A stretch of DNA of 64,000 bases from Pempheris klunzingeri (taxonomy: Eukaryota; Chordata; Actinopteri; Acropomatiformes; Pempheridae). The notes under the pieces were generated by a model. That model was not told where the DNA came from, searched no databases, and saw nothing but the letters and a program-made list of their open reading frames with translations. Shown here piece by piece: positions 2,065 to 64,000 of the stretch; position 1 is the first letter of the stretch, and every line of letters begins with the position of its first letter. The translations under genes were made by a program, and so were the position numbers. The stretch covers positions 13,781,535 through 13,845,534 of the forward strand of contig NC_092015.1 in assembly GCF_042242105.1 (NCBI RefSeq), written 5' to 3'.

Positions 2065-4537
2065 TATTGAATTGTTATCTCTTAAATTTTCCTCCATCAA
2101 GCTACAGTAGTCAATGTTTTTCCCTCCATGTTTCACCAAAAACATTAGTGTCTACAAAACAGATCTGTATACAAGATATGCAAATCCATAATGCTTGACA
2201 CATTACATAAAGCATGCACGTTTGCTTAGTCAAGAGCATGTTGGTCCGCATATTCAATGAAACATATTTCCCTCTTTCACAATATCAGTAAACAGGTAAG
2301 TTAACTGGAGGACTGTAGAGGTTGGTTGCATGTATTTGTCAATTTATCTTCATCTCCCTTTTCGTCTCTTCTTCTTCCAAAACCTGCTTTTAGAGGCTGA
2401 AACAACTAACCAGTCTCATGTGTAGCTAAAAGAGAAAAAACCTTTCCATGTCACAAACTGTAGGTTAATTAATGTAGCACATCACTGATATCTGGTATCT
2501 GTCTATGAATATGGGACTAAATGTATAGTTTTGTCTTGAAGTGCACATACAGCCGAGGAATTTTCATTTGATGTAAAGCTGCAAGTTTGGATATTTGGAG
2601 AATTACAGAGCTACAGGAGGCCCTACGATTTCACACATCAACGATCACTTCACAGTCGTACACTTATGTGATGTCTTCAGTGGCAACTGGAGAGCTCTGA
2701 GAAAATGACCCTGATGATGTCATCGGGGTTATCTCATCTCGTGGAGAGTCTGTGTTACAAACTGTGGGGAAAGGAGGATCTGACAAAAGATGCTATTGAG
2801 TTGCACTGGGGGAATTACATTTGGAGCCCAACAGAAACTGAGGACAAAAAGTCAGGATATCTCAATCTTTGCTGAATCAGCTTTCACCATTATTTTTTAT
2901 TCTTTGCTGTTCTTAAATGCAGGTCCCTAAACTAAAATACTAAACTCTCTTTAGTAATCACTGCACTTGTCTGTATCTGGAAGCAGGCACAGAATAACTC
3001 TGTGCTGTTGCCATGAGGGGAAAATTAATAGCTCAAGTTAATGCGTGCTGCTCAGGTAGTGAAAATCTTGAATTGAAACACAGAAAATTCAGTCTCGCAG
3101 CCAGATTGCTGTCCCCTTCTTCACAGATCCATTAACAGAACAGTAGCCCCACTTAGTTTGGGTCGACTCAGCTTGGCTTAATGGTGCAAAGGAATGTTGT
3201 GAGAGACTCTTGAAAACAGACACACTACAGGCCTTGTCACACGTTCATCAATCACATCCGTCCTGTGACGCACCACAAGGCATTTTAAAACACATCAAAC
3301 GGGGCTCTGGGCTTTAATCAGGCAAAAGGACTCTCACTGACTCATGAATCCCTCACGGAGCTCCTTGCACAACAGACACATTTCTCCATAAACTCTACGC
3401 GCAGCAGGGTTAATAATGCCATGAATGAGCCACATAAATAGAAGACATGCAGTAGAAAAATCTGTTAGAGACCAATAAACACACGTGATAAGTGTAGCTA
3501 TGTTTGCAATAATATTAATAATGCAAAATATTCTTTTACCATTTTTAACATCCAGCTAACAATCCTGTGAGCCACAACTCTGCAGAGAATTCATTACTTC
3601 TTTGATCCACTATGAAAGATGGTGCTCATTAGGGATCTTGCCAAAAAAGAAAAAAAAAAAAACTACCCCCCAACAGTAGACTATCTGACCCCAGTGTGTT
3701 TTACTCATCTTCATAAATATGCATGCCTCTTTTTATCCTGTTTGCTCGCATTAGTTTTTACCAGTCATCAAGGCACTCATCCATTAATTATGACTGTGGT
3801 GACCTTATTAAGGTTACATCTAAAACTAGTCTTGTTATTGCGACCTTGGGCTGGCGGTGGGGGCGGGACACAGCTCTTTTCCCGCTGTGTTGGCTGAACA
3901 CAGTGACTCTCCTGAAGAAGAGAGGACTGGCCAACAGCACCAAGCAGAAATAGCAGCTAGAAACTCAAGAGACTCTGGAGGAATTAAAGGGAGTTTTAGG
4001 TGTGAGTGGATCAAGAAAGGAAAAGGGCAGATTAGTGAACCAGATGAAGTTGATCAGTACCAAAAAATGTGTGTTAGTGTTTGATGTACGTGGTAAACAA
4101 ATCTGAGCAAACACACCTTTCAGATATTTTGTTAGTGATCAATTGGTTAGTCAATTAATTGATCAGTCGACTCAACTGACGGAGGAATAATTGCTAACAA
4201 TTTTTATATTCATTTAAATCCATTATTAAAGCCAACATCAAACAGACACTCAAATTCAAGTCCCCTGTTGAATGTTTGACCACTGGTCGCGCTGTGGAGC
4301 AAAGTTTTTACAAGTGGGTCTCTCTCTCTTTTTGTCTGTTATAATATTTGTTTACAAGGAAACTCAACTAGATGGATTTTCTTTGTCTATACCTTTTCTT
4401 TGGATGTCTATACCTACTGCAGGAAATCTCATATCAGACATAGCAACTCCTCGGCAACTTTGGTACCTAAGAAGCATTTAAGAGAAGAAAACCAGGACAG
4501 ACAGAGTCAACTGCAGAGAGGGAAAAACACGAAATAA
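2065..4537. other. Non-coding spacer, no gene recognised
   Basis: This AT-rich sequence has short open frames that lack domains or codon structure. A poly-A run lies near 3650-3661. It ends at the downstream (3') side of the gypsy relic. I found no LTR, polypurine tract or target duplication here that would mark the end of that element. Confidence 0.4.
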
Positions 4538-4710
4538 CTAAACGGTCATGGCTCTGGACATGGCATCAGCCACTACATTTTCAGCACCTTTAATATATCG
4601 AACATCTAAATGAAATGGCTGGAGGAACAGACACCAACGCATGAGCCGCTGATTTGGATTTTGAAGTGAGTTAAGAAACGTTAGGGGATTGTGATCTGTG
4701 TAGACCACCA
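4538..4710 (-). pseudogene. Ty3/gypsy RNase H C-terminal remnant
   Basis: The minus-strand frame from about 4710 to the stop at 4538 encodes the end of a Ty3/gypsy RNase H domain. Diagnostic motifs are VVYTDHNPLTFL, NPNQRLMRW, FLQPFHLDVRYIKG and the terminal VVADAMSRA. It is about 57 residues long. The N-terminal part of RNase H, with the first catalytic carboxylates, and the whole reverse transcriptase are missing. Immediately upstream on this strand is SCAPER-derived sequence in another frame, so this remnant is not translated as part of the upstream reading frame. It belongs to the chimeric relic at 4538-6421 and is non-functional. Confidence 0.85.
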
Positions 4711-5318
4711 AAGTTGAGGGTGCGACGTGCACCTGGAGAAGGAACCATTCTATCTGCTGAGGGGCTTGGCATCACATGACGTCCTAGAGACATCTTATGC
4801 ACCTCCCAGGCTAAAGACGTGGGCCTGTTCTGTGCATCTGTTTTCTCCAACTTCTCCTGAAGCTGGATCCAGTCTATGAGAGCTTTGAAATCCCGTATAT
4901 AGTTGTCCAGCATCATCAGCACCTCCCCGCATTCTACGACGCTCTGATCAGATTCACAGGTGACGTAAATCTCGTCCACAGTTCGACGGAGATTGTCGAA
5001 GAGGAAAGCCCAGTAGCGTGCTCGCAGGTCCACCTTGCGGGGCTGCCTGGCTTTGATAGGGCTCTTCTCCACCCCCTTGTCCAACAAGGCGCCAGCTGTG
5101 CCTTTACTTTCCACGCCAGCATTCTGTTTCTTATTTCTTTGCTGTCCAGGATTGATCCTCTGGGCCCTGGGATTGCCGCTGGAGTTACTTTTGGACTTTG
5201 CTTCCTCCTCTTTGTTTTCTAGAGGTACACTCCAGGCAATGAGGTTTCGAGCAGCACGGCCCTCTTCAGCAACTATCTTCCTAACCTTGTCATGGCTGTT
5301 GGAGCGCTGGAAAGATGG
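4705..5318 (-). pseudogene. scaper: SCAPER N-terminal cDNA fragment captured inside a gypsy relic
   Basis: About 204 codons on the minus strand match the N-terminus of vertebrate SCAPER, the S-phase cyclin A-associated protein of the endoplasmic reticulum. The match starts at SFQRSNSHDKVRKIVAEEG, passes RNLIAWSVP, DLRARYWAFLFDNLRR, EIYVTCESDQSVVEC, DNYIRDFKALIDWIQ and RPTSLAWEV, and ends at ARRTLNFGG. There are no introns or stop codons, although as I recall this part of SCAPER spans several coding exons, so the source was a spliced mRNA. It begins at about SCAPER codon 2 and covers roughly 200 of about 1,400 residues. Retroelement sequence abuts both ends without a poly-A tract. The frame is shared with the upstream gypsy sequence: the open frame runs 5624-4671. 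It is a captured fragment; an expressed product is not shown. Confidence 0.88.
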
Positions 5319-5850
5319 CAACACGCCATCTTGGAGAAAATAACCACTGGCTGCACTTTCCACCTCATCATCTGAGAGAACCTGGCTGTACAGAACCTGA
5401 AGGGTGGGGTCATCTTTTTGTTCTTTCACCAGATCACTGCAAGACACAGGCAAAGGAAATGCAGGCACAGGAAACACAGATTTTGTTTTTTTGTCTAGAT
5501 TTTCAGGACTGGAACCACCACTGGTGTGGCTCATGGCACGTGTCACTGCACAGGTGGGAACAACCACAGAAGAAGATTTTGGAAACTCAGAACCCTCCAT
5601 TGGGATCTGAACATCCATCTGCATGGGTACTTCAGGCCAAACCCAACCCCAGCCAAGTCATTACCTAAGATTACCTGTATTCCCCTCATAGGTAACGAAG
5701 GACGCACTCCCATGACCACATCTCCTTGCACCAGATCTGAAATTAAAGTCAGTTTATGCTGTGGAGCAGAAAGGACAGTCAGTCCCATCCCTTGGACATC
5801 AACTCTAGACCCTGTGTCAGTCACAGGAGAGAAAGGCAACACTGAACCCA
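5319..5850 (-). pseudogene. Ty3/gypsy (Gmr1-like) protease and integrase-start remnant
   Basis: Two minus-strand frames together cover the end of a retropepsin and the region after it. The first (about 5850-5640) contains LTLISDLVQGDVVMGVRPSL and VILGNDLAG, typical of fish gypsy proteases. A one-base frameshift near 5640 leads to the second (5624-5319), with VVVPTCAVTRAMS, DLVKEQKDDPTLQVLYSQV and GYFLQDGVL. The latter resembles the start of gypsy integrase (H2C2 region). Integrase following protease directly, with RNase H at the far end, fits the Gmr1 pol order (PR-IN-RT-RH). The expected protease active-site triad appears to be deleted near 5860. The second frame runs straight into the SCAPER segment. 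Confidence 0.72.
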
Positions 5851-5918
5851 CAATAAATTAATCTTAATATTTTAACAGGAACTTTCTTCTCACTCCCCAC
5901 CAGTGAAACGTAACCATT

Positions 5919-6421
5919 TCACACAAACGCAGCATAGCCAGGATCTATCCTGTTTGAGGAATTTATTTGCACTTTCTCCACAACAGGAAGCTCAAACACT
6001 TGCTCTGAAAAGGATTTTGTGTGCGCCTGCACAGCAGCAATGACACGGTCTCTTTCCTCTGCACGCAAAGATGCCGCAGCCCCAGACGGTTTTGCTCCTA
6101 TATTACCAGGCTTAAACTTGTTTTTCCACTCTGGACACTCATTTCTCCAGTGACCCTTACCAAAACAACAACTACAGATGCGATTTGGGTCCAACTTTCC
6201 CCGTAGTCCACGATCTGCTTTAACTGAAATCCTCTCCATTCCATCAGAAAGATATTTACTAGAGTGAGCCCCCACGCAGCCATCTCCGCAAACACGATTC
6301 TCACCAGAAAAAAACATATGAGTCAAAACAAACTCATCTGCCAACTTGGCAGCATCTGAAACTTTACTTACTTTCTGTTCATTAATGTAAGTAACAACAC
6401 GTTCAGGCAGAGTATTATGGT
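5919..6421 (-). pseudogene. Ty3/gypsy gag C-terminal remnant with CCHC zinc knuckle
   Basis: A minus-strand open frame of about 165 codons runs from about 6421 to a stop near 5919. It contains a capsid-like segment (LPERVVTYINEQKV, then AAKLADEFVLTH) and a zinc knuckle CSCCFGKGHWRNEC, which fits C-x2-C-x4-H-x4-C exactly. It would bind element RNA during particle assembly. The N-terminal gag is missing and homology fades beyond about 6421, so it is a truncated relic. It sits directly upstream of the protease remnant on the same strand, which is the normal gag-pol order. Confidence 0.8.
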
Positions 6422-7262
6422 ATGTAGAGTAGGATGGTAATTAATGTGTTTACGGGCTTTTAACACAAATCGTAAATAATCTACCAGTAACTCACACTGA
6501 GCAAACAAAATCAGCTTAAATTATTTTATTTTGACCTTTTTTCGATTTTACTAGACAGCTGGTAGTTTGTAGAGAGACAGCGGGAACGTTACAGTAATAC
6601 ATTATACATCTTAACCACTTGTGACTGTTTTTTTCCCTTAAATCTGTTGAGTAATTGTCAGTTTAACTGATGATAAAAAAAAAATCATTAGATGCAGCCA
6701 TAATACAGTGTCCAGAGTCCTCCGTCTGGAGCCTGTCTGGGGTTCAGGTGATGCTTTAATTGCTGTGTGCAGAGACAATGAGATGGACGGTGGCAGCTGC
6801 AGCAACCAAACTGCACATTCCCACGATGCCTGAGAAAAAACAAGGTCAACTTGTCACACTGACCTGCCAGACACTTTCACACACACACGCACGCAGAGTG
6901 CTGGAGCCGAATGCCAGCAGTATCCACTCAACATGCCATAAGAATTAACGATTTCCAAAAGGCAGAGGGGACGAAGCACACAAAGAATGTAAATACAGTG
7001 GAGAGGATCAGAGTGGACCACACAACAGGGGAGAGAAGAGGAGGAGGGAGTCACATCGCTCTCTGATTTCTCCTGGTGATCGGACGCTATATTCCATTTC
7101 AACAGACCACCTGCTGCACAGATCAGTCCGGGCCAGACCTGGCTCCGTTCTCAGCATGCCAGACCCCAGTGCATCTTTCAGGGGGGCTCTGCTGACTCAC
7201 AACTGTTACAACAGCACGGTAATACAGTTTTGGAAGGGTGTCTTATGAGCTCACTTCTAACA
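6422..7262. other. Spacer, possibly decayed gypsy 5' sequence
   Basis: Minus-strand sequence near 6425-6500 could be decayed gag, but I see no firm motif. The remainder has poly-A and CA-rich patches and no supported gene. No LTR or primer-binding site was found. Confidence 0.3.
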
Positions 7263-7281
7263 GTGGTGGTTATGGTCTGAG
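7263..7281. repeat. 19-bp direct repeat, left flank of the 386-bp insert
   Basis: GTGGTGGTTATGGTCTGAG is identical to 7670-7688. The two copies bracket duplicated copy 2 exactly, as a target-site duplication would. Confidence 0.85.
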
Positions 7282-7665
7282 TGGGTGTTTGGTTCTCGGC
7301 GAGTTGCTGTGGCCTCTGACATTTATCACACCGATCTCTCGATGGCACACTTAACGGTATCTAGCAGAGAGAGGGAAACATTATCAAGCTGGAGATAAAC
7401 AACTCTCACTCAGTGTGGTGAGAGGAGAAATACAGAGTCGGGTTCAAAATGCCGACAAACACGTCCTCCTTGAACCTTCACTTTCATTTCTCCTGACAAG
7501 CTGCAGAATGCGTAGTTTATTTAAGCTGCGTCACACAAAGACACCTTTTACTTCAAGGGTGCAATCATTCCTCTCAGCAGCTCTCTGATTCATGCCCAAG
7601 ATATGTGGAGCAGTTATTAAAAATCTGGTATTGAGTGGCATTGCAGCAGTTATGGCTTTGCAAAT
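7280..7665. repeat. 386-bp duplicated sequence, copy 2 (inserted copy)
   Basis: It is nearly identical and collinear to 1679-2064, about 5.6 kb away. A perfect 19-bp direct repeat flanks it (7263-7281 and 7670-7688), so this copy looks inserted into a pre-existing site. There is no poly-A tail and no terminal inverted repeat. The duplication length suits LINE-type target-primed insertion or repair of a staggered break templated from copy 1. It might be one member of a dispersed family not visible in this window. Confidence 0.85.
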
Positions 7666-11793: not shown

Positions 11794-11986
11794 CAGTGTT
11801 TCCTGGTCCTGGAGGCCCACTGGCCTGCATGCTTTAGATGTTTCCCTGCCCCAACACACCTGATTCAAATGAATGGGTTATCAGGCTTCTGCAGAGCTGG
11901 ATGACAAGTTGATCATTTGAATCAGGTGTGTGGAGCAGGGAAACATCTAAAGCATGCAGGGCAGCGGGCCTCCAGGACCGCGACTG
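11794..11986. mobile_element. Palindromic hAT-like MITE
   Basis: This is an imperfect inverted repeat of about 190 bp. The left arm (CAGTGTTTCCTGGTCCTGGAG, then CATGCTTTAGATGTTTCCCTG and ACACCTGATTCAAATGA) is mirrored on the right by TCATTTGAATCAGGTGTGTGGAG, then CAGGGAAACATCTAAAGCATG and CCTCCAGGACC. This layout matches a very common fish non-autonomous hAT family. It has no coding capacity, and the 8-bp target duplication is no longer evident. Confidence 0.8.
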
Positions 11987-35040: not shown

Positions 35041-35118
35041 ACATGCTGGTTGGAGAGTGATCTTGTCATCTTTTTGCTGTAAAAGAACTACTTTAACTCT
35101 GCAGTAAACATATGGCCG

Positions 35119-36435
35119 TTGGTAGCCGTTGGTAGCCGTTTTGGCTACACGAGTGATCAGCTGATCGCTCTGAAACCTGCTGGCATCCTGACCACAAGAT
35201 CTTCACAAATTCCAGAAGAATTGAGGAGGAAAACACACCGAGGTTGCAGAGGAAAGAAGAACCAGCGGAGGAGAGAAACCAGAAGGAGACGACGGAGGCG
35301 TATGGAGGAAAAGAAACACAAACCCTGTCTCCTCATCGTTACTATGGGCAACGTGAGATCGCTGGTAAACAAGATGGAGGAGCTAACAGCGTTAGCCAGG
35401 AGTCAGATGGAGCACCGGGAGTGTAGTCTAATGTGCTTTACGGAGACATGGCTGCATCAGGACATTCCCGACGACAATGTTTCCATTGACGGCTTCCAAA
35501 CTGTTCGGGCCGACAGGGACTGCACCAGGAGCGTTAAGCGGGAAGGGGGGGGGGGCGTTCTGGTGAACAACAGGTGGTGCAGTCCTGCTCACATTACTAT
35601 CAAGGAGCGCATCTGCAGCCCGGACATTGAACTGTTTGCTGTTGGTCTTCGTCCATATTATCTGCCACGGGAGTTTTCAAATGTTGCCATGGTGACTGTT
35701 TACATTCCTCCTTCTGCCAACCCGACTTCGGCGTGTGACATCATCCACTCCGCCATAGCTCGGTTACAGACTCTACACCAGAGTGCAGTCCCATTCATTG
35801 CTATCTCGGGTGACTTCAACCATGTCACCATGTCAAAAGCACTGCCCACCTTCACACAGTACGTGAACTGTTTCACCAGAGAAGAGAGGATCCTGGACTT
35901 AATGTATGCTAATGTGAAGGGTGCATACAGCTCCTCCCCCCTCTGGGCAGGTCTGACCACAATCTCATACACCTCAGTCCCACTTATTTGCCTCTGGTTA
36001 AAAGACAGCCTGTGACCATAAAGACAGTGAGGAGATGGTCGGAAGAGGTGTATGTGGAACTGCAGGGATGTTTTGAGGTCACAGACTGGCAGGCACTCTG
36101 TGAGCCAAAAGGAGAAGACATCGACGGGCTCACAGAGTGCATCACGGACTATATCAACTTCTGTGTAGACTCCATTGTTCCAGTAGAGACTGTTCACTGT
36201 TACCCAAACAACAAGCCGTGGGTAACAAAGGACATTAAGGCCCTCCTGAATGATAAGAAGAGGGCTTTCAGGGCTGGCAACAAGGAAGAGATGAGAAACA
36301 CAGAGACACCTGAAGCACAAGATCAGAGAGGCTAAGGAGAAATATAGGAAGAAGTTGGAGCGGAAACTCCAGCAAAATAACAACAGAGAGGTCTGGAGAG
36401 GGATGAGAACAGGCTGGCAACAGTGGAGTTGAAGG
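35119..36435 (+). pseudogene. LINE ORF2 5' part: APE-type endonuclease, frameshifted
   Basis: The first frame (35119-about 35935) has endonuclease landmarks: FTETWLHQDIPDDNVSIDGF, VYIPPSANPT and ISGDFNHV. A one-base shift in the C-run near 35934-35941 moves the rest to a second frame, including the catalytic SDH triad at 35952-35960 (SDHNLIHL) and a linker with PWVTKDIKALLNDKKRAF (to about 36290). A third frame (KIREAKEKYRKKLERKLQQ) runs to about 36420, and another shift leads into the RT frame. With three breaks the endonuclease cannot be translated as one protein. It is the same element as 36440-38044. Confidence 0.85.
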
Positions 36436-36439
36436 CAGT

Positions 36440-38044
36440 GTGGAATGGGCCAATGAACTTAATCTGTTCTTCAACAGATTTGATGCCCAGGCCCCTGCAC
36501 TCCCCACAGACACTACCATCAACACCTCGATTGTTCTGCCCCCAACAACACCTACTCCACTCTCTCCCCCTCACCCTCCTTGCAGCCTCTCATCTTCAAG
36601 GGAAGGCCACTCTCTCACCTCTATCCCCACCCCCTCACCCCCATCTTCAGTAACTATCACAGCTGAAGATGTTAGAAGACAGCTGGGGAAACTTCACTCT
36701 GGCAAGGCTGCAGGCCCTGATGGTGTCAGCCCCAGGGTGCTCAAAACCTGTGCCATCCAGCTCTGTGGAGTTCTTCAGCATGTCTTCAACATGAGCTTGA
36801 GTCTGCAGAGGGTCCCGGTGATGTGGAAGACGTCCTGCCTAGTTCCTGTGCCGAAGAAGCCGCACCCTGGTGACTCTGGGGACTACAGACCTGTGGCGCT
36901 GACCTCCCACATCATGAAGACCCTGGAGAGACTCATCTTGGAGCAGCTCCGGTCCATGGTCAAATCGTTTCTGGACCCCCTACAGTTCGCCTACCAGCCC
37001 CAACTTGGAGTTGAGGATGCCATCATCTACCTGCTTGACCGCATCTACACTCACCTGGACAAGACGGCGAGCACTGTGAGAGTCATGTGCTTTGACTTCT
37101 CCAGTGCTTTCAACAGCATCAGCCCAGGTCTACTGGGTGAGAAGATGTCAGCGATGCAGGTGGACCCCGCCATCGTGTCCTGGGTTGTGGACTATCTGAC
37201 TGGCAGACCACAGTATGTGCGCCTGAAACACTGTGTGTCAGACAGAGTGGTCAGCAACACCGGGGCCCCACAGGGGACTGTCCTCTCTCCTTTCCTCTTC
37301 ACCCTCTACACCACGGACTTCAATTACTGCACGGAGACCTGTCATCTCCAGAAGTTTTCTGATGACTCAGCGGTGGTTGGATGTATCAGCAAGGGAGATG
37401 AGGTCGAGTACAGGGCTGTTGTGGACAACTTTGTCACATGGTGTGAGCAGAACCATCTACAGCTCAATGTGACAAAGACAAAGGAACTGGTGGTGGATCT
37501 GAGGAGGACCAAGGTGCCGGTGTCCCCTGTTTTCATTCAGGGGGTCAGTGTGGACATTGTTGAGGATTGTAAGTACTTGGGAGTACACATTGATAACAAA
37601 CTGGACTGGGGGAGGAACACTGATGCCCTTTATAGGAAGGGCCAGAGCCGCCTCTATTTTCTGAGGCGGTTGAGGTCCTTCAACATCTGCAGGACTATGC
37701 TGAGGATGTTCTATGAGTCTGTGGTAGCCAGTGTTATCTTCTATGCTGTGGTATGCTGGGGCAGTAGGCTGAGGGTAGAGGATGTCAATAGACTGAACAG
37801 ACTGATCCGCAGGGCCAGTGACGTTGTAGGAGTGAAGCTCGACTCTCTGACGGTGGTGTCAGAGAGGAGAATGCTTCACAAAGTGGGAGCTATTTTGGAC
37901 AATGTGTCCAACCCACTCCATGAAGTGCTGGTTAGATACAGGAGTTCTTTCAGTGCCAGACTAATTGTACCACGATGCACTACAGAGCGCCACAGGAAAT
38001 CATTCCTGCCTGTGGCCATTAATCTATACAACTCCTCACTCTGA
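36440..38044 (+). pseudogene. LINE reverse transcriptase (CR1/L2/Rex1 group)
   Basis: This open frame of about 534 codons holds an RT domain in order. GKAAGPDGVSPRVLK is followed by WKTSCLVPVPKKPHPGDSGD, DYRPVALTS, CFDFSSAFNSI, NTGAPQGTVLSPFLFTLYT and the catalytic FSDDSA (DD at 37361-37366). After it come LNVTKTKELVVD, YLGVHIDNKLDW and a C-terminal region ending KSFLPVAINLYN. This is the jockey/CR1/L2/Rex1-type non-LTR family of fish. The RT frame is uninterrupted, so the copy is young, but its endonuclease is frameshifted upstream. The host-type ATG is missing because the frame simply continues from the broken upstream part. Confidence 0.9.
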
Positions 38045-56731: not shown

Positions 56732-57007
56732 TCAGTTGAGGAACTTGCGACACTTCTTTGCACCGCAGTTGCAGGGCAGCTTGTTGCTGGCATCCTCAAT
56801 AGGGAACTTGTAGTCGTAGGTGAGCTCCTCTCCACAGTAGATGCGCCGAGAGGCAAAGATGACGATGTGCTTCTGGCCGTCCACAGTGATGACCCGAGAG
56901 TAGCAGTTGGGCTCACAGGAGTGGTTAATGAAGCGGGCAGCGTTGCCATGCACCGTCGCATCTACCACCTCATAGTCATCGATGCGAAACATGTAACAGC
57001 CAATCCC
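56732..57007 (-). CDS. kmt2a: kmt2a last exon: catalytic SET core and post-SET
   Basis: The acceptor is CCCTCAAAG|GGGATTGGC, and the frame is 91 residues plus stop. It contains [11 protein letters not shown], the AdoMet-binding [10 protein letters not shown], the catalytic-tyrosine motif GEELTYDY, and the post-SET zinc cysteines CNC and AKKC, ending CRKFLN. The sequence is nearly identical to the mammalian C-terminus. Confidence 0.96.
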
Positions 57008-60000
57008 CTTTGAGGGCAGAAAACACAGTGAAAACATATGTTTGATGCTTCCTCTACTTTTTGAGTCTAGCAAACAATGAATACATTTTAAACCCTTTCC
57101 CAAGACCTCACCTTTCCATCATAATATTTCTCCCGTTTGTCAGTGAGCACAGACCGAATGACATTTCCAGAGTATTCGATGACCATCTCTCCGGCCTCAA
57201 TTGTTTTCTTGCAGAACAGGCCGCGGCCATGAATGGGAGACCTACAGAGGGACACAGTTGTTGGAAGTGATTCACAGTAATGTTATTTAAGTTATGTGTA
57301 TGTAGATGTCGTTTTAAACCCTTTTGTTACGGCCAACTGCCTTTTTTAAACTTAAAGTTTAACCACAAGAGTTGACAGATCAACATTACAAAAATGACCA
57401 AAGTAATTAGGACTCGTCTCGGTGAGCAGAGAAATCCAATGGCTAATGTTACGTTATATAGATCTTGTGTAACGTTTCTTCGGCCTCGGTGATTATTTGC
57501 AGTTAAAGCAGAAATGATCTAACCTGTAGACTCCAACAGTTTCCTTAGAGGTGGCCTTGAGCTGTTTGAATCTCACAACCAGTGGTAGCTCCATGGAGGT
57601 GCGTCTGCAAAAACAGCATGAAAAAGAAATGTTATGGTTCTCTGCAAACCCACAAGACTGTCTTGATAACATTATATAAGAACTCTAAACCTGAGATTTT
57701 AATGAAGAGTACCCAAACATATGCCGGTTAACTGGTGACTAAGTTTTCCGTAGGTGTGAATGTGTGTGTAAAGAGTTATCTATCTCTGTGTGTCGGCCCT
57801 GTAATTGACTGGCAGCCAGTTCAGGGTGTACCCAGTTAACTCCAGCCCCCACATGATCCTTTAAGGATAACCAGTACAGGCACTAGATGGACGGATGGAA
57901 GGTAAGATCATCCTTTATTGATTTATCCATCCATCCATTTTCTTCTATTTATCCAGAGTCAGGTCACGGCGACATCAGGCTAAGCAGGGCACTCCAGACG
58001 TCCTTCTCCCAAGCAACACTTTCCAGAAACCAAAGTTTTCCCACGCCAGATGAGACATAAAATCCCTCGAGTGAGTTCTGCGTCTGCCCTGGTAACTCTT
58101 CCCAGTTGGACATGCCCAAACACATCCAAGGGAAGGTGCCTGTGAGGCATCGTAACCAGATACTCCAACCACCTCAAATGACTCTTTTTGATGCAAAGGA
58201 GCTCCTACATGATGTCTGAGCCCCTCACCCTTATCTGTAATGCTGAGCCTAGCTGCCCTCCAGCAGAAAATCAATCTCGTTCTACCAGTCTGCCCAAAGC
58301 ACATGATCAACGGTCAAGGGGGGATATTTGGGTGTTGCAGCAGCTCAAAGATAGATCATGTTTGCTGTGAAACATTAACAGGTATTTTTGAGCGAGCTGT
58401 AACTAACCTGGCAGTCCTGAGCTGCCCTTCATCATCATCATCTTCTTGCGATCTGTACTCAGGAGGCTGGCGATGTTTTGAGGCCAAGAAATTAAACATG
58501 TCAAATACAGACCTCCTGGAATGCAAACAGATGGAACAGACAGCAGTCAGAAACACAAACACACGAGACCCACGGCAGGTTACAAGTTCAACTAAATCCA
58601 ATTTACCTGCAAGTAAAATTAGGGCGAGATAGAAGGTCCTTGGCTATCCTTTTGTTCAAAGAATCATTTTTCAAACGCATTATACCATATACAATATAAA
58701 GAATAAACAGGCGTTAGTGCAGTGGGGCAATAATAGTAATAGTAATGGTTGTGTGCATTCATTCTATTATTAAGCGACCTATCTTCACCTGTGATCACCG
58801 AGTGTATAATACCGTCATGTGGCAAAAAAGTGTTACTGTTTGAGATACAGACATTTATTAATGGTGAGCTCTACCTGCATCCAGACCCTGCCACGGTACG
58901 CACTCCACAACATAACCTCCTATGGAAGTGTGTATATGTGCATGTGATTCTAACCTGTGGTTGATCTCTGCACGAGCCGATCCGTGGGGGTTGATGGGAG
59001 GCTCGTCTGTTTCTTCTGGTTTGTGGAAGCGGAAACGGTAGCTCCGACAGTGTCTGGAGCCGTACAGCTGCTCGAGCAGGAAGACCACTGCCTCATGGAC
59101 GACTCCCAGCATCTTAAGTCCATTCACACCTAGCAAACAAACGATGAATCATTTGCATTTTCCATTCAAAAGTCAAACTTAATATTAGTCAACAGTGGAC
59201 ACTATAAAAGGCATTTTAAAAATGCAGCAGCATATCCATTCTTCTTTCTTAACGTAGTCTGTGAATAACCAGGCTCACCTTCAAAAGAGAGCTCTTTGAG
59301 CCGTGCGTTGGAGCGAGCTTCTTGCACCTTATCAGTCAGGGATTTCCAAGCCTCTGTAAAGGGACAGGCAGTGACATCGGGACAGTTCAGTATTTCATAC
59401 ACACTGTATGTTCGATGTTTCAAACACATCAACAGCATTTATTCTTTTGTAATCACCTTTACATGACTGCATGTATAGTACATGTGTGTAAAGTAGTGCA
59501 AGTAACCGTTTGTGTGCACAAGTCGTAATTATACTGATTTATTTGTTCTGTCAAAGAACATAAAATGCTGTCAAGCTATCTGGTGCATTTTGATTTGTGC
59601 TACAGCGTCGTGTAAACACTCAGCAATTAAGAGGACATTGTGTCTTTCTGACAGTTAAAAGCCCCGTGCCAATATGAGCTTTTGCAAAAGACATTTTGGC
59701 ACAAAAACATAAATATAACAAATGCAGTAACAGTGATGTCATTTTCTCTCACCTTCGATACTCTCACTGCGGATGTGGAAGCCGTCCTCACTGCAGATTT
59801 CAAAGATGATGCCCTTCTTGGGTTTGCTATCCAAGCCCGTATCCCGGCTGTTGCCGTCCTGGTCGGGTGGTGAAGCGACAGGAAGAGACCCTGTCCCCCC
59901 AGCTGCAGATGGTTTGTCTTTCCCCACCATTTTACCTGGTAAAACTGGACCATCAGATGTCTTCTTTTTCCCAAGCACACTGGAAAAGATTTGAGGAAGA

Positions 60001-63000
60001 ATTAGAAGTCTTTTATATGGTCGGTATGAAAATGGCTACCTAGCATGGATGACTTCATACCTCTTGCTGGTTGCCTTGTCTGCCGGCTTGCCTGTGTCCA
60101 TGGGTTCAGGGGGCTCTTTGGAACTGCTTGCAAAGAAGATAAAAGAGGTTCAAAATGGGAATATATATTTTATGCAAAGTACTTTAGTGAACAATTGGTG
60201 GTTATAAATTCACATAATGAGGTATTTCAATTCTCTGTACCTGAACCAAACTATAATATGATGCACAGCAAATGAAAACATAATTGTGTACAAATACCCC
60301 GTCTGTTATAGAGAAGCATCTAAAGAAAAAAAAAAAGCATAATCCTTCTATACTTAAAATGATAGTAGAGGATCACAGCAAGGACATTTTATCTCTTCTT
60401 TCAATTGAATGTTAAGACATTAAAAAAAAGAATCTTTACTTTTATCTTTAGTATCTTTACTATGCGGAGCACATTTAAGAGAATTTTTGCTAATTTTTCC
60501 ATGCATTCACATAACTATGAATAATAAACTGAAAACATCACATTGTTAACATGTCAAGCAGCCAAAATAACAATTATCTCACTTTGGGTTTGAGTGAAGT
60601 CGTCCTGCAGGGTTACTGTGATGCTCCTCTGCCTGAGAGGTCTTGAGCTTCTTCCCGCTGATTATGTCTAGACTCTGCCTGCTCCTCTTTGTCTTCTGTT
60701 TGCCTTTTTCTGGTCTTGAAACTGCAACTGCTGTATTGGAGTTTGGCTGCCTTTGCTCTGATGATCTAGAGATGGGAGTTGTTCGACTGCTCTGGGAGAG
60801 TGCGGAGGTTGGGGTGAACACGCCGACAACACGTCCCTTAGCAGGGCTGGGGGCTAAAGTGACAGTAGCAGTTGGACTGGAGTCCACAGGCTGGGCTCTG
60901 TGAATAGACTGGTGCTGTAAGTGGACATTACTGCCTTCTGTCTCTCCTTGCTGGTTGACAGCCATGCTAATCTGAGTCTGTTGGGAGGGCAGGACGCAGA
61001 TGCTGCTGGCTATAGATGTCTGCACAGAGGAGCTGAGCTGTGACATCAGAGGAGCTCCTCCTGCTGACTGGAGGACCATTGGCTGATCTGTCAGGCCCAA
61101 GCCATGTGGACCTGCTTTAAACAGGAGGTTGCTAATTGGTCCAGTGATCTCAGTAGTGCTGAGGACAGGGGTGGAGAGGGAGACTGATCCTGGTGCAAGA
61201 AGCCCAGTAGCACCACTAGGGGGCATAGACACAACATTCAACACTGACTGACTGGGGTTGAGACTAGAGACTGTGCAAGGTAGAAGGTGAGTGGAATCGT
61301 GACCCAGGATACCAGGCTGGGCGGAACCAGGAATCCTCTGATGAAGAAGAGTAGTGGGATCCAAGTACATCACGCCACCTGATTTTGGTCTCTTGATAAT
61401 ATTTGGGACCTTGCGCTGAGAAGTGGAGAGGGTGCTCAACTCAACCAGGCCACCAGGTTGGCCAGGGATGCTGGCTGTAATCTGAGGGGTCGACAGGTTG
61501 ATGAGGGTCATGTTGGGAGGGCCCACTTCAGATGGGGCCAGAGTAGGCTGGCTACGGGAGCGGGCCAACTTTTTGCCCTTTCTAGGCTGAAGACGAGAGA
61601 TAGGCCTCTTCTTGCCATGAGCAGAGGCGAGTACAGTAGGGGAAGAAGTGAGAGACGAGGGACTGGACACTATGGCAACACTGGGACCCAACTCGTGCGG
61701 TCGACCAGCTTCTGAGACCAGAATCTGGGGCTGGTCGTGGGACTGGGAGGGTAACCCAATAAGAAGTCCTGATGTGGTGCTGGGGATTCCCGTCTGGAAG
61801 CCTGCCTGTGTTGCTCCTGCAAAGGTGTGAATCTGGGAGGGATGCGGCATGGTGCCCAGGACTTTACCACCAGCAGGAAATATTTGCTGGGCCGTGGATA
61901 AACCAGTATTCAGCCCTGTGGTAAGAGTCATAGAGCTCAACACTGTTGAAGAGGTTGTGTCCATCACTCCCGTGGCACTAATTTTTTGGGTGACACCATT
62001 AGGGACGGTCTGAAGAACATAGAGAGGCTGGAACTGCTGATTGACCACAATGAGCTTGTCAGGGCCAGGTTTGATGACTGCTGGGCTGGACACCTGAGCC
62101 TGGGATGGTCCTGGGCCAGGAATTGGACTGGGACTACCTGTAGCTGCAGCTGATGCTGGGAGGTACTTCTGACCCTGAAGAGGCAGGGAGGGAGAACTTG
62201 GCAAACCAGGGGTGCCAGAACTCCTGGGAACATCCTGGTTACCTGGAGGTTCAACCACCTGACCAATGGCAGGACTGGGAATAAATTGCTCAGGAGTCAT
62301 GTGACCTTCAGTGACCTGCGTGTCTCTGTTCCCCAAAGTTGTAGCATCGTGCTGATTCTCTGACGGTGACACGACTGGCCCTGTCCTTTTCTTGTTCCCA
62401 CTCTTTTCTCCACTGATCGTCTCTGGGTCAGAGGTCAAACCCAGCATGGTGCGGTCAGAGGTGTCTGAGATAAGACTCCCAGCAGTGTGGTTCTGACTGG
62501 TGCTGACAGTGGGGCTGCGTGTAGTCAGGACAGAGAGGTCAGAAGGCAGCTCCAAAGGAAGATATGGCTCCTCTACAGATATGGAGCTATTAACGCTACT
62601 CTCCACTACACCTCCACTCTCAGCACTGGGCAGCGGCTGGGAAAAGTCATCGAACAGAATGTCTTTGCGGCGGTTGACATCCACTCCAACATAGCCCTCA
62701 TCCAGAAGCAGTTCGGAGGAAGACGACTCAGGCTGCTGACCCAGAGCCTGCATTGACATGGAAGGTGTGTTGAGGACAAACTCCATGATGTCAGATGGCA
62801 AAATGTTACCGCAGTCGTCACTGTTGTTGTTGTCAGAGTCTGATTTAAGCAGGTCTGTGCTGAGGGACAGCTGGGCCTCCAGAGGATCCTGACCCTGACC
62901 CTGGCTCTGCGGCTGGGACTTAACCCCGCCTCCAAGAGGAAGACAGTTTTCTTTCTGGTTCTTCCTGCTTTCTCGCGTGTTGCCGCTTACTGCTCCACCA

Positions 63001-64000
63001 CTGCTGTCAGCCTCCTTGCTTGAGTCATGGGAGTCAGGTTTCTCAATGTGCCTCTCTCTTCCCCTTCGCTTAGGAGTGTTCTTATGTGGGGTGGAAGAGG
63101 AGGTGGCTGTTGTGGTAGTGGTGCTGGTGGTGCAGATGCTGGTATCACTCTCTGAGCCATCATCAACGCCATCGAGCTGGCCAATATGCTGCTTGCCTAT
63201 GGTCCTGTTAAACACAGCAAAGACAAAAAGTTGGATTATTAGAGAGAGCAGGAAATAACCACAATTACATTTTAGTCGTGTTTTTAATCAAAATAATTGT
63301 GTGCACTTACAAAGCACTGAGCATGTCCTCATCGGCTTTTCCTTGAGCCCTTTGTTGTTGCTGCTCCTCGTCTTTTAGAAAGCGCTGAAGCTGGGATCCC
63401 CTTCCCAGACACTGGTCTATTCCCTCTATAGATGGTAGGCCCTCACCAGGGTTAATTATTGTCCGGGTGAAGTTGTAGTAGTAAGGGTCTTTGCCCCTCT
63501 GTTTCAGCGCGCTGTCTTCATCCTCTCCACTATCCCCTGACGAAGAGGTGGTGCTCATATCATCTGCTCCATCCACCTGCCCCTCAGCTGACTTCTTGCG
63601 CCCGCCACTCCTTCTCTTAACCACGGCCCCGGCTCCATCTCCGCTGCCGTAGAAGGGGAGGTCCTCCTCACCATACGAGCGAACCCCATAGAAAGGTGTG
63701 AGGCCAAAAAACATGTTGGAGCGGGCACGGGCGCTGCGTCGTGGGTAACGGCGCTTGGCTGACCCCGATCCGTCACTGTCATCCTCGTGATGTTTATCAT
63801 CCATCCCTCTGTCGTGGTCATCCTCTGGGCCGTCGCCCTCGTCCTCAGTGCCTTGAGTGAGGAGGCTGCGGTGGTCTCGGAACTCACTGCGTGAGTGCTC
63901 CTTCCGCAAATCCTCTTCCTCAGTCTGAGTCTGGGTGTCAGATTCAGAGCTGTCACTGCTGCTGGCAGACGGCGAGGAGAACAGAGCAGAGCGGGCAGAG
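56732..64000 (-). CDS. kmt2a: KMT2A (MLL) histone H3K4 methyltransferase, C-terminal part
   Basis: Ten exons join in frame to encode the last 1,482 residues of a protein of about 4,000: 64000-63311, 63204-60583, 60126-60061, 59979-59753, 59353-59279, 59129-58955, 58515-58408, 57604-57524, 57241-57112 and 57007-56732. In order they carry Taspase1 site 1 (QVDGADD), Taspase1 site 2 (QLDGVDD), the CBP KIX-binding segment (SDIMEFVL), a long Ser/Thr/Pro region, FYRC, the Win motif (GSARAE), SET ([18 protein letters not shown]) and post-SET ([13 protein letters not shown]). The enzyme methylates H3K4 with WDR5, RBBP5, ASH2L and DPY30 at developmental genes such as Hox. The N-terminal half (AT-hooks, CXXC, PHD, FYRN) lies beyond the right edge. 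All key residues look intact. Confidence 0.96.
57112..57241 (-). CDS. kmt2a: kmt2a exon: N-terminal SET
   Basis: The exon is 130 bp, acceptor CTGTAG|G and donor GGAAAG|GTGAGG. It encodes [20 protein letters not shown], then VIEYSGN and [10 protein letters not shown]. The HGRGLF motif is the AdoMet-binding start of SET. Confidence 0.94.
57524..57604 (-). CDS. kmt2a: kmt2a exon: SET N-flank
   Basis: The exon is 81 bp, acceptor TTTTTGCAG|ACGCACC and donor CTACAG|GTTAG. It encodes [20 protein letters not shown] and ETVGVYR, the segment leading into SET. Confidence 0.93.
57715..57920. repeat. Fish interspersed repeat in a kmt2a intron (GGATGGA-type end)
   Basis: GGTTAACTGGTGACTAAGTTTTCCGTAGGTGTGAATGTG, TCGGCCCTGTAATTGACTGGC, CAGGGTGTACC and the terminal GATGGACGGATGGA match a widespread fish repeat. 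It is diverged and lies directly beside a second repeat. Confidence 0.6.
57921..58335. repeat. Second fish interspersed repeat in the same kmt2a intron
   Basis: It begins ATCCATCCATCCATTTTCTTCTATTTATCC and includes CTAAGCAGGGCACTCCAGACGTCCTTCTCC, CATCGTAACCAGATACTCCAACC and CTCACCCTTATCTGTAATGCTGAGCCTAGCTGCCCTCC. This is the familiar fish repeat that I take to be the 3' region of an RTE/Rex-type LINE. It is degenerate. Confidence 0.6.
58408..58515 (-). CDS. kmt2a: kmt2a exon: end of FYRC
   Basis: The exon is 108 bp, acceptor ATTCCAG|GAGG and donor GCCAG|GTTAG. It encodes [20 protein letters not shown] followed by an acidic [14 protein letters not shown] linker, matching KMT2A between FYRC and SET. 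Confidence 0.94.
58955..59129 (-). CDS. kmt2a: kmt2a exon: FYRC core and Win motif
   Basis: The exon is 175 bp, acceptor TTTGCTAG|GTGTG and donor CACAG|GTTAG. It encodes [20 protein letters not shown], then [10 protein letters not shown] and [13 protein letters not shown]. The arginine in GSARAE is the one that inserts into WDR5. Confidence 0.95.
59279..59353 (-). CDS. kmt2a: kmt2a exon: FYRC N-flank
   Basis: The exon is 75 bp, acceptor TTTACAG|AGGC and donor TTGAAG|GTGAG. It encodes [20 protein letters not shown] followed by ELSFEG. Confidence 0.93.
59753..59979 (-). CDS. kmt2a: kmt2a exon upstream of FYRC
   Basis: The exon is 227 bp, acceptor TTTTCCAG|TGTGC and donor TCGAAG|GTGAG. It encodes [10 protein letters not shown], a polar Gly/Ser/Pro segment, then [20 protein letters not shown], a conserved KMT2A/B stretch before FYRC. 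Confidence 0.92.
60061..60126 (-). CDS. kmt2a: kmt2a small linker exon
   Basis: The exon is 66 or 63 bp; the acceptor is ambiguous between CAAG| and CAAGCAG|, and both keep frame. The donor is AAGAG|GTATGA. It encodes [21 protein letters not shown] tandem acceptor (NAGNAG-like) could give two isoforms differing by one residue. Confidence 0.8.
60583..63204 (-). CDS. kmt2a: kmt2a large exon: Taspase1 site 2, transactivation region, S/T/P-rich region
   Basis: This is the 2,622-bp exon typical of MLL (acceptor TTTAACAG|GACC, donor CCCAAA|GTGAGA). It opens with [20 protein letters not shown], the second Taspase1 site. CBP/p300 KIX-binding sequence follows ([16 protein letters not shown], then [18 protein letters not shown]). 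About 600 low-complexity residues rich in Ser, Thr, Pro and Gln come next, and it closes with [22 protein letters not shown] basic sequence ([15 protein letters not shown]). Cleavage at the Taspase1 sites makes the N320 and C180 halves in mammals. Confidence 0.95.
63311..64000 (-). CDS. kmt2a: kmt2a exon with Taspase1 site 1 (runs off the window)
   Basis: The frame is open to the right edge; donor GCTTT|GTAAGT. It encodes an acidic/Ser-rich segment, then [20 protein letters not shown], the site QVDGADD followed by [16 protein letters not shown], and [17 protein letters not shown]. The last is strongly conserved in MLL. The exon start lies beyond 64000. Confidence 0.94.

Follow-up and report, generated by a model that had tools for sequence, protein, structure and literature searches.

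Oncogene capture by retroviruses proceeds through a read-through RNA, followed by one template switch. LTR-mediated retroposition has reportedly been described in metazoans by Tan et al. in 2016, a study cited in PMC5408686 and PMC8232201. Proviral-host read-through with splicing is documented for ALV/c-erbB and M-MuLV/c-myb in PMC3186009. Template switching in animals is treated in PMC5408686 and PMC8232201. Both of these papers describe how LTR elements of animals capture host sequence through template switching, and PMC5408686 gives joins of mRNA to LTR elements at microsimilarity in zebrafish, chicken, mosquito and Drosophila. In maize, the LTR element Bs1 holds pieces of host genes and a hybrid frame, according to extracts of PMC5408686 and PMC13317346, the latter of which files it under transduction. 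Elements of the Gmr1 type have integrase before RT, with RNase H last (extracts of PMC8220671 and PMC2774666).

The locus described here lies in a window of 64,000 nucleotides from Pempheris klunzingeri (C4:13,781,535-13,845,534; assembly of 646 Mb in 439 contigs). Judged by its sequence, the element in this window is a truncated Gmr1-type Ty3/gypsy retrotransposon with a SCAPER cDNA inside. The chimera is like acute transforming retroviruses in its intron-free host exons within an LTR element, its loss of element genes, its need for a helper and its Gag-type fusion, but it differs in being a gypsy retrotransposon in the germ line, with SCAPER as cargo and no sign of benefit or harm. It shares with LTR-mediated retroposition the joining of a piece of mRNA to an LTR element by a template switch at microsimilarity, and it differs in having multiplied into a family of several copies and in a 5' junction that looks like a splice. 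Bs1, from what its extracts give, differs from the SCAPER chimera in being a plant element with three captured genes. Host gene transduction by LTR elements is thus known, and what is new is a Gmr1/SCAPER family found together with its parent gene, the SCAPER-free element and the offspring. A single capture of spliced SCAPER exons by a Gmr1-type LTR retrotransposon, followed by spread, very probably explains the observations as a whole, with splicing and then a template switch as the most likely route. No title on SCAPER within a retroelement came up in searches of the open-licence literature; the one paper that contains both SCAPER and 'processed pseudogene' gives no more than an entry for an HERV in a SCAPER intron.

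Structure of the chimera in the window

The frame at 5657-4671 (minus strand) matches Pfam SCAPER_N with an E value of 5.9e-45, and its residues 112-319 match one PDB chain, SCAPER 8bpo_s2 (E 5.7e-92), which we take to be human SCAPER. The match is collinear from just past the start Met through LNFGG, and 146 of the 202 ungapped positions are identical. An earlier note, made from the letters alone, had proposed a gypsy element with SCAPER inside, and both halves of that proposal held in the searches, the SCAPER part through these two matches and the element parts (Table 1) through two relatives, L001 and L002, and two SCAPER-free host copies, C9 and C1.

Table 1. Parts of the chimeric element in the window, in window positions, and the other chimera loci in the host genome
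Feature	Position	Strand	Evidence
Chimera copy in the window (C4), whole	4397..6416	minus	blastn against C7 (95.8%) and C13b (95.6%), 2,038 columns
Gag C-terminal part (SCAN-like end, zinc knuckle) into protease	5862..6416	minus	L001 residues 382-583 on 6398-5862
Protease (PR) C-terminal part	5648..5842	minus	L001/L002 alignment
PR-integrase linker and integrase start, ending ...GATGGCGTGTTG	5319..5564	minus	L001/L002 alignment, host copies
Captured SCAPER exons, 118+77+198+101+117 = 611 nt	4708..5318	minus	Pfam, PDB chain, parent exons
CTTTGGTGGTC, 11-nt identity of spliced SCAPER mRNA (exon 6 / exon 7) and element at the 3' junction	4703..4713	minus	
RNase H C-terminal end and natural pol stop	4538..4713	minus	Pfam RT_RNaseH 1.3e-7, A1 alignment
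328-codon open frame: PR end, linker, integrase start, SCAPER, 10 out-of-frame codons over RNase H	4671..5657	minus	
Chimera C13a	C13:8,114,440		
Chimera C7	C7:974,978		
Chimera C13b	C13:17,103,780		
Chimera C17	C17:6,252,543		

The relatives L001 (a 1718-codon frame) and L002 (a frame open at the contig edge) carry H2C2/rve ahead of RVT_1, with RNase H last, and L001 also carries a SCAN-like gag domain. The parts found in the window align to both collinearly, from gag and PR to an RNase H that begins at about 4713, with 858 residues absent between L001 806 and 1665. Several of the L001/L002 HSPs are weak taken singly (31-35 bits; the integrase start by L001 has an E value of 0.015), and the linker scores of 68 and 84 are above the maxima of 50 and 53 reached in 200 shuffles each. 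The gene order of L001 and L002 is that of the Gmr1 lineage of Ty3/gypsy, namely integrase, RT and RNase H (extract of PMC8220671), and the LTRs of tetraodontiform Gmr elements measure 337-518 bp in the excerpted text of PMC11117352, against 391 bp here. Unlike the Gmr1 lineage, the chimera is without the integrase core, RT and most of RNase H. The order PR, integrase start, RNase H and stop is kept relative to L001/L002, and 611-616 bp of SCAPER cDNA stand in for 2,536 bp that cover integrase, RT and RNase H sequence.

L001 and L002 came, with L003 and L004, from an RNase H search of genome contigs, and the last two were set aside as short or weak. The contigs of L001 and L002, NJBF01000089.1 and NJBF01000101.1, are assigned to a Candidatus Heimdallarchaeota MAG, in which they are most likely eukaryotic contamination. 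Nothing in the genome contigs matched the chimera, and no acceptable relative of the element was found among the viral contigs, where L005 (1,773 of its 7,602 bases compared) is a likely chance match.

The earlier note had drawn the chimera from 6421 to 4538. The chimera itself stands, and its limits have moved, as the alignments to C7 and to C13b both stop exactly at 6416 and 4397. The window copy is cut off within gag at the first of these points and ahead of the 3' LTR at the second; it is truncated, without LTRs and dead. Its gag/protease stretch contains one in-frame stop, and the catalytic DTG segment present in the L001/L002 protease is missing. The SCAPER and RNase H parts have no stops, which is not significant (P 0.11). 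RNase H, which had been placed after SCAPER, is indeed present; it is read in a different frame from SCAPER, with which its ORF (4771-4538) overlaps.

The window flanks beyond 6416-4397 gave no match to the other chimera copies. A search for a target duplication, comparing 6400-6520 with 3600-4560 around provisional limits of the copy, gave one common 11-base word. A 9-mer is common to 44% of random pairs, and the result carries little weight. A 386-bp direct duplication (1679-2064 and 7280-7665, 98.4%) was considered as the LTRs of the window copy and rejected, given that its ends are not TG...CA, that one repeat copy is flanked by its own 18-bp repeats and that the family's real LTRs have a different sequence. 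The second copy of this duplication lies between those 18-bp repeats (at 7263 and 7670), has no poly-A and resembles an insertion that duplicated its target site.

The window holds several further features. A palindromic stretch at 11805-11979, with inverted arms of 49 nt at 94% and a self-match of 180 columns at 84%, is possibly a small foldback or a DNA-transposon remnant. A LINE-like element occupies 35083-38044, with a frame at 36407-38044 that matches RVT_1 (4.4e-28) and ALKBH8_N. Part of a KMT2A/B-type gene extends over 56732-63999 on the minus strand, with a SET exon at 56732-57118 (best match KMT2A, E 3.1e-58); the frames at 60579-63287 and 63307-63999 are probably further exons of it, by position only and with no Pfam match. 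A C1q gene and a RING-finger frame are also present.

The parent gene

In the host's own SCAPER gene, on C5, the captured part is divided among five exons, numbered 2 to 6 in this analysis, whose 118, 77, 198, 101 and 117 nt add up to the length of the window segment. The introns between them measure 1555, 420, 2340 and 449 bp, are all GT...AG, and are missing from all five chimera copies, so that the absence of introns stated in the earlier note is now a direct observation. This comparison replaces an argument from human data, by which the probability of no intron was 0.002-0.006. The window segment differs from the spliced parent exons at 14 of 611 sites, with neither stops nor indels relative to the parent.

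The next parent exon, exon 7, was placed by reading frame and acceptor, and it presumably corresponds to that of human SCAPER. It begins TGGTCCTCC, and the mRNA there reads CTTTGG/TGGTCC (here and below a slash marks a boundary). Exon counts for human SCAPER vary, as PMC11203295 assigns the acceptor at c.2023 to intron 18, and PMC6772143 places c.2236 in exon 18, by a numbering that runs about two lower. Exon 1 was not located in the C5 stretch examined. No element was found in C5:13,045,600-13,114,900, which reaches up to 52 kb upstream of the captured exon start.

Copies of the chimera in the host genome

A protein search of the host genome gave 25 matches down to an E value of 2e-4: five chimeras, five matches on the SCAPER gene and 15 to the element only. 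The five loci, on four contigs, are a lower bound. Of the 19 places outside the window and SCAPER, six were examined over 9.9 kb, namely the remaining four chimeras and the best two of the element-only copies (C9 and C1). C7 and C13b are 97.5% identical over 4,483 columns, LTR to LTR; C9 and C1, both without SCAPER, are 93.3% identical over 4,268 columns. The window matches C9 and C1 at 94% over 1.0-1.1 kb, and in C9 the match stops at window 5319.

The C7 copy is a complete insertion of 4,439 bp. Its two 391-bp LTRs run TGTGACG...GGTAACA (TG...CA), are 99.0% identical, with 4 of 391 sites different, and are flanked on either side by GACTA, a target duplication of 5 bp. Sequences like a PBS and a PPT, as we take them to be, stand in the expected place. 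LTRs also bound C13b (98.7% over 398 bp) and C13a (5 of 375 compared sites different, with 29 gap columns), and in all three copies element sequence lies on both sides of SCAPER in the same sense. No clear target duplication was found at C13a or C13b, and the C17 copy is truncated. SCAPER was captured and the chimera has moved, in agreement with the mobility that the earlier note had made conditional on further copies, given five loci, identical junctions, LTRs and the C7 target duplication.

LTR divergence (K2P) is 0.010 for C7, 0.014 for C13a and 0.023 for C13b, the last falling to about 0.013 without seven unmatched starting bases; if a rate of 1e-8 per site and year is assumed, the corresponding age is about 0.5 to 1.1 million years. 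The C13a copy (L014 5422-8233) also contains, within RNase H, a nested 2.8-kb insert with a 901-codon frame on the opposite strand and CCCCTAACGTTTCTT on both sides by a T-run, which is probably a later LINE insertion. Beside C13b (L016 6843-9901) shifted self-matches reveal a long tandem array whose repeat unit measures about 177 bp.

The junctions and the route of capture

The 3' junction, ...CTCAACTTTGGTGGTC/TACACAGATC, is the same in five of five copies. At this point C9 reads ...AACTCCTTTGGTGGTC/TACACAG and carries, between the two junction points, 2,536 bp of element sequence missing from the chimeras; the site was searched for in C1 and not found. The 11-nt CTTTGGTGGTC at the junction is identical in all five copies and crosses the exon 6/7 boundary of the mRNA, and therefore the RNA at the switch was spliced. 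An overlap of at least 11 nt at a random join has a chance of 2e-6. Since a 4.2-kb mRNA and 2.6 kb of element should have about 2.6 11-mers in common by chance alone, the identity is notable only through its place at the junction. The 3' junction marks a template switch.

The 5' junction, ...CTCCAAGATGGCGTGTTG/CCATCTTTCC, is identical in C4, C13a, C7 and C13b, the four copies that retain it. The SCAPER-free C9 and C1 read GTGTTG/GTGAGAAAATGG there, so that a donor-like GTGTTG/GTGAGA is found in both of the SCAPER-free copies examined. The host has ctgcag/GCATC and the chimera GTGTTG/CCATC; the captured segment thus begins at the exon start, one base off the exact splice product. That first base is C in all four copies and G in the parent. 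It must be a mutation in the founder or else an untemplated base, and the second possibility would fit a template switch better. The GTGAGA site is one of only 8 GTRAG sites in the 4,735 bp of C9, and the joint chance of the exon start coinciding with a GTRAG donor is 1.4e-5, if the two are independent. Because of this coincidence the 5' junction is read as a splice, which seems the more likely of two readings. The template switching put forward in the earlier note therefore applies at the 3' end, and the 5' end looks spliced rather than like a second switch.

By this route, a transcript would start in an element upstream of or within SCAPER, and the read-through RNA would be spliced from the donor-like site in integrase to the SCAPER exon. 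The hybrid RNA, with the element's 5' end, would be packaged alongside normal element RNA. Reverse transcription would start at the 3' end of the normal RNA and move to the hybrid at CTTTGGTGGTC, and through this switch the cDNA would have both LTRs again. The resulting non-autonomous chimera, with Gag, protease, integrase start and SCAPER in one frame, would have reached at least five loci with RT and integrase supplied in trans. Read-through with splicing at the 5' junction, co-packaging and this supply in trans are inferred. A sense element at or upstream of SCAPER is absent from the C5 stretch searched and may be farther off, lost or polymorphic.

The splice step, and no other, is contested by a reading in which both junctions are switches between element RNA and normal SCAPER mRNA, the 5' one falling at an exon start by chance, perhaps at 2-3 common bases; capture and mobility are common to both readings. 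This is a tenable if less probable account, given that the 3' junction is itself a template switch, that double switches are the published model (PMC5408686), that the odd junction C could be untemplated and that SCAPER has no donor insertion in the C5 stretch. Against it stands the coincidence of the exact exon start with GTGAGA, which would be less striking if the end of exon 1 offered microsimilarity. With splicing at the 5' junction as the preferred reading, the full retroviral pathway in a non-viral LTR retrotransposon (read-through, splicing from a cryptic donor, co-packaging, a single switch and a mobile Gag-protease-SCAPER family) is moderately probable. The data suggest a likeness to retroviral-type transduction that reaches as far as the junctions, and class membership is not claimed.

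Reading frames, drift and history

The C13b copy reads gag-PR and SCAPER in one 816-codon frame with a single stop, and in C7 SCAPER continues the frame upstream of it (588 codons). The window frame ends after ten codons of out-of-frame RNase H. No intact helper was found in the C9 and C1 sequence examined, in which no frame exceeds 402 codons. Nine differences from the parent, five of them synonymous and four not, are common to all copies, and a 21-nt in-frame deletion in SCAPER is common to C7 and C13b. Given the identical junctions, these common differences and the C7/C13b deletion, the family derives from one capture and a single founder, and then split into subfamilies. The common deletion and the LTR divergence of 1-2% indicate repeated recent copying.

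The captured SCAPER drifts neutrally, with no sign of constraint. Changes within the family number 27, comprising 10 synonymous, 16 nonsynonymous and 1 stop, and the 17 of 27 that are nonsynonymous or stop compare with a neutral expectation of 69.5% (P 0.29). Selection for the sake of element or host could be suspected from the four of five copies in which SCAPER is stop-free and from a dN/dS of 0.17-0.32 against the parent, but that figure also includes the parent's own constraint and the within-family changes fit neutrality, making retention by selection improbable.

Other origins of the chimera

End joining of a SCAPER cDNA into one element copy at a break, with later spread of that copy, would likewise yield one founder junction, but it leaves the 11-nt identity, the coincidence of exon start and donor, the sense and the frame unexplained, and is very improbable. 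LINE sequences in the window and the nested insert of C13a might bring to mind a LINE-made processed pseudogene within the element, or an assembly artefact, a notion that has next to no probability and is refuted by the recurrence of the junctions at five loci, spread over four contigs; nor do the SCAPER edges have the poly-A or duplication by which the earlier note would have known an independent pseudogene.

Significance

One genome holds the intron-bearing SCAPER gene, SCAPER-free copies of the element and chimeric offspring at no fewer than five loci, with LTR pairs 1-2% apart in three of the chimeras. The classical model of gene transduction thereby becomes legible base by base outside the retroviruses. 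An animal LTR retrotransposon is able to capture a host mRNA and multiply with it as a family, and its SCAPER cargo could yield small RNAs against the parent gene.
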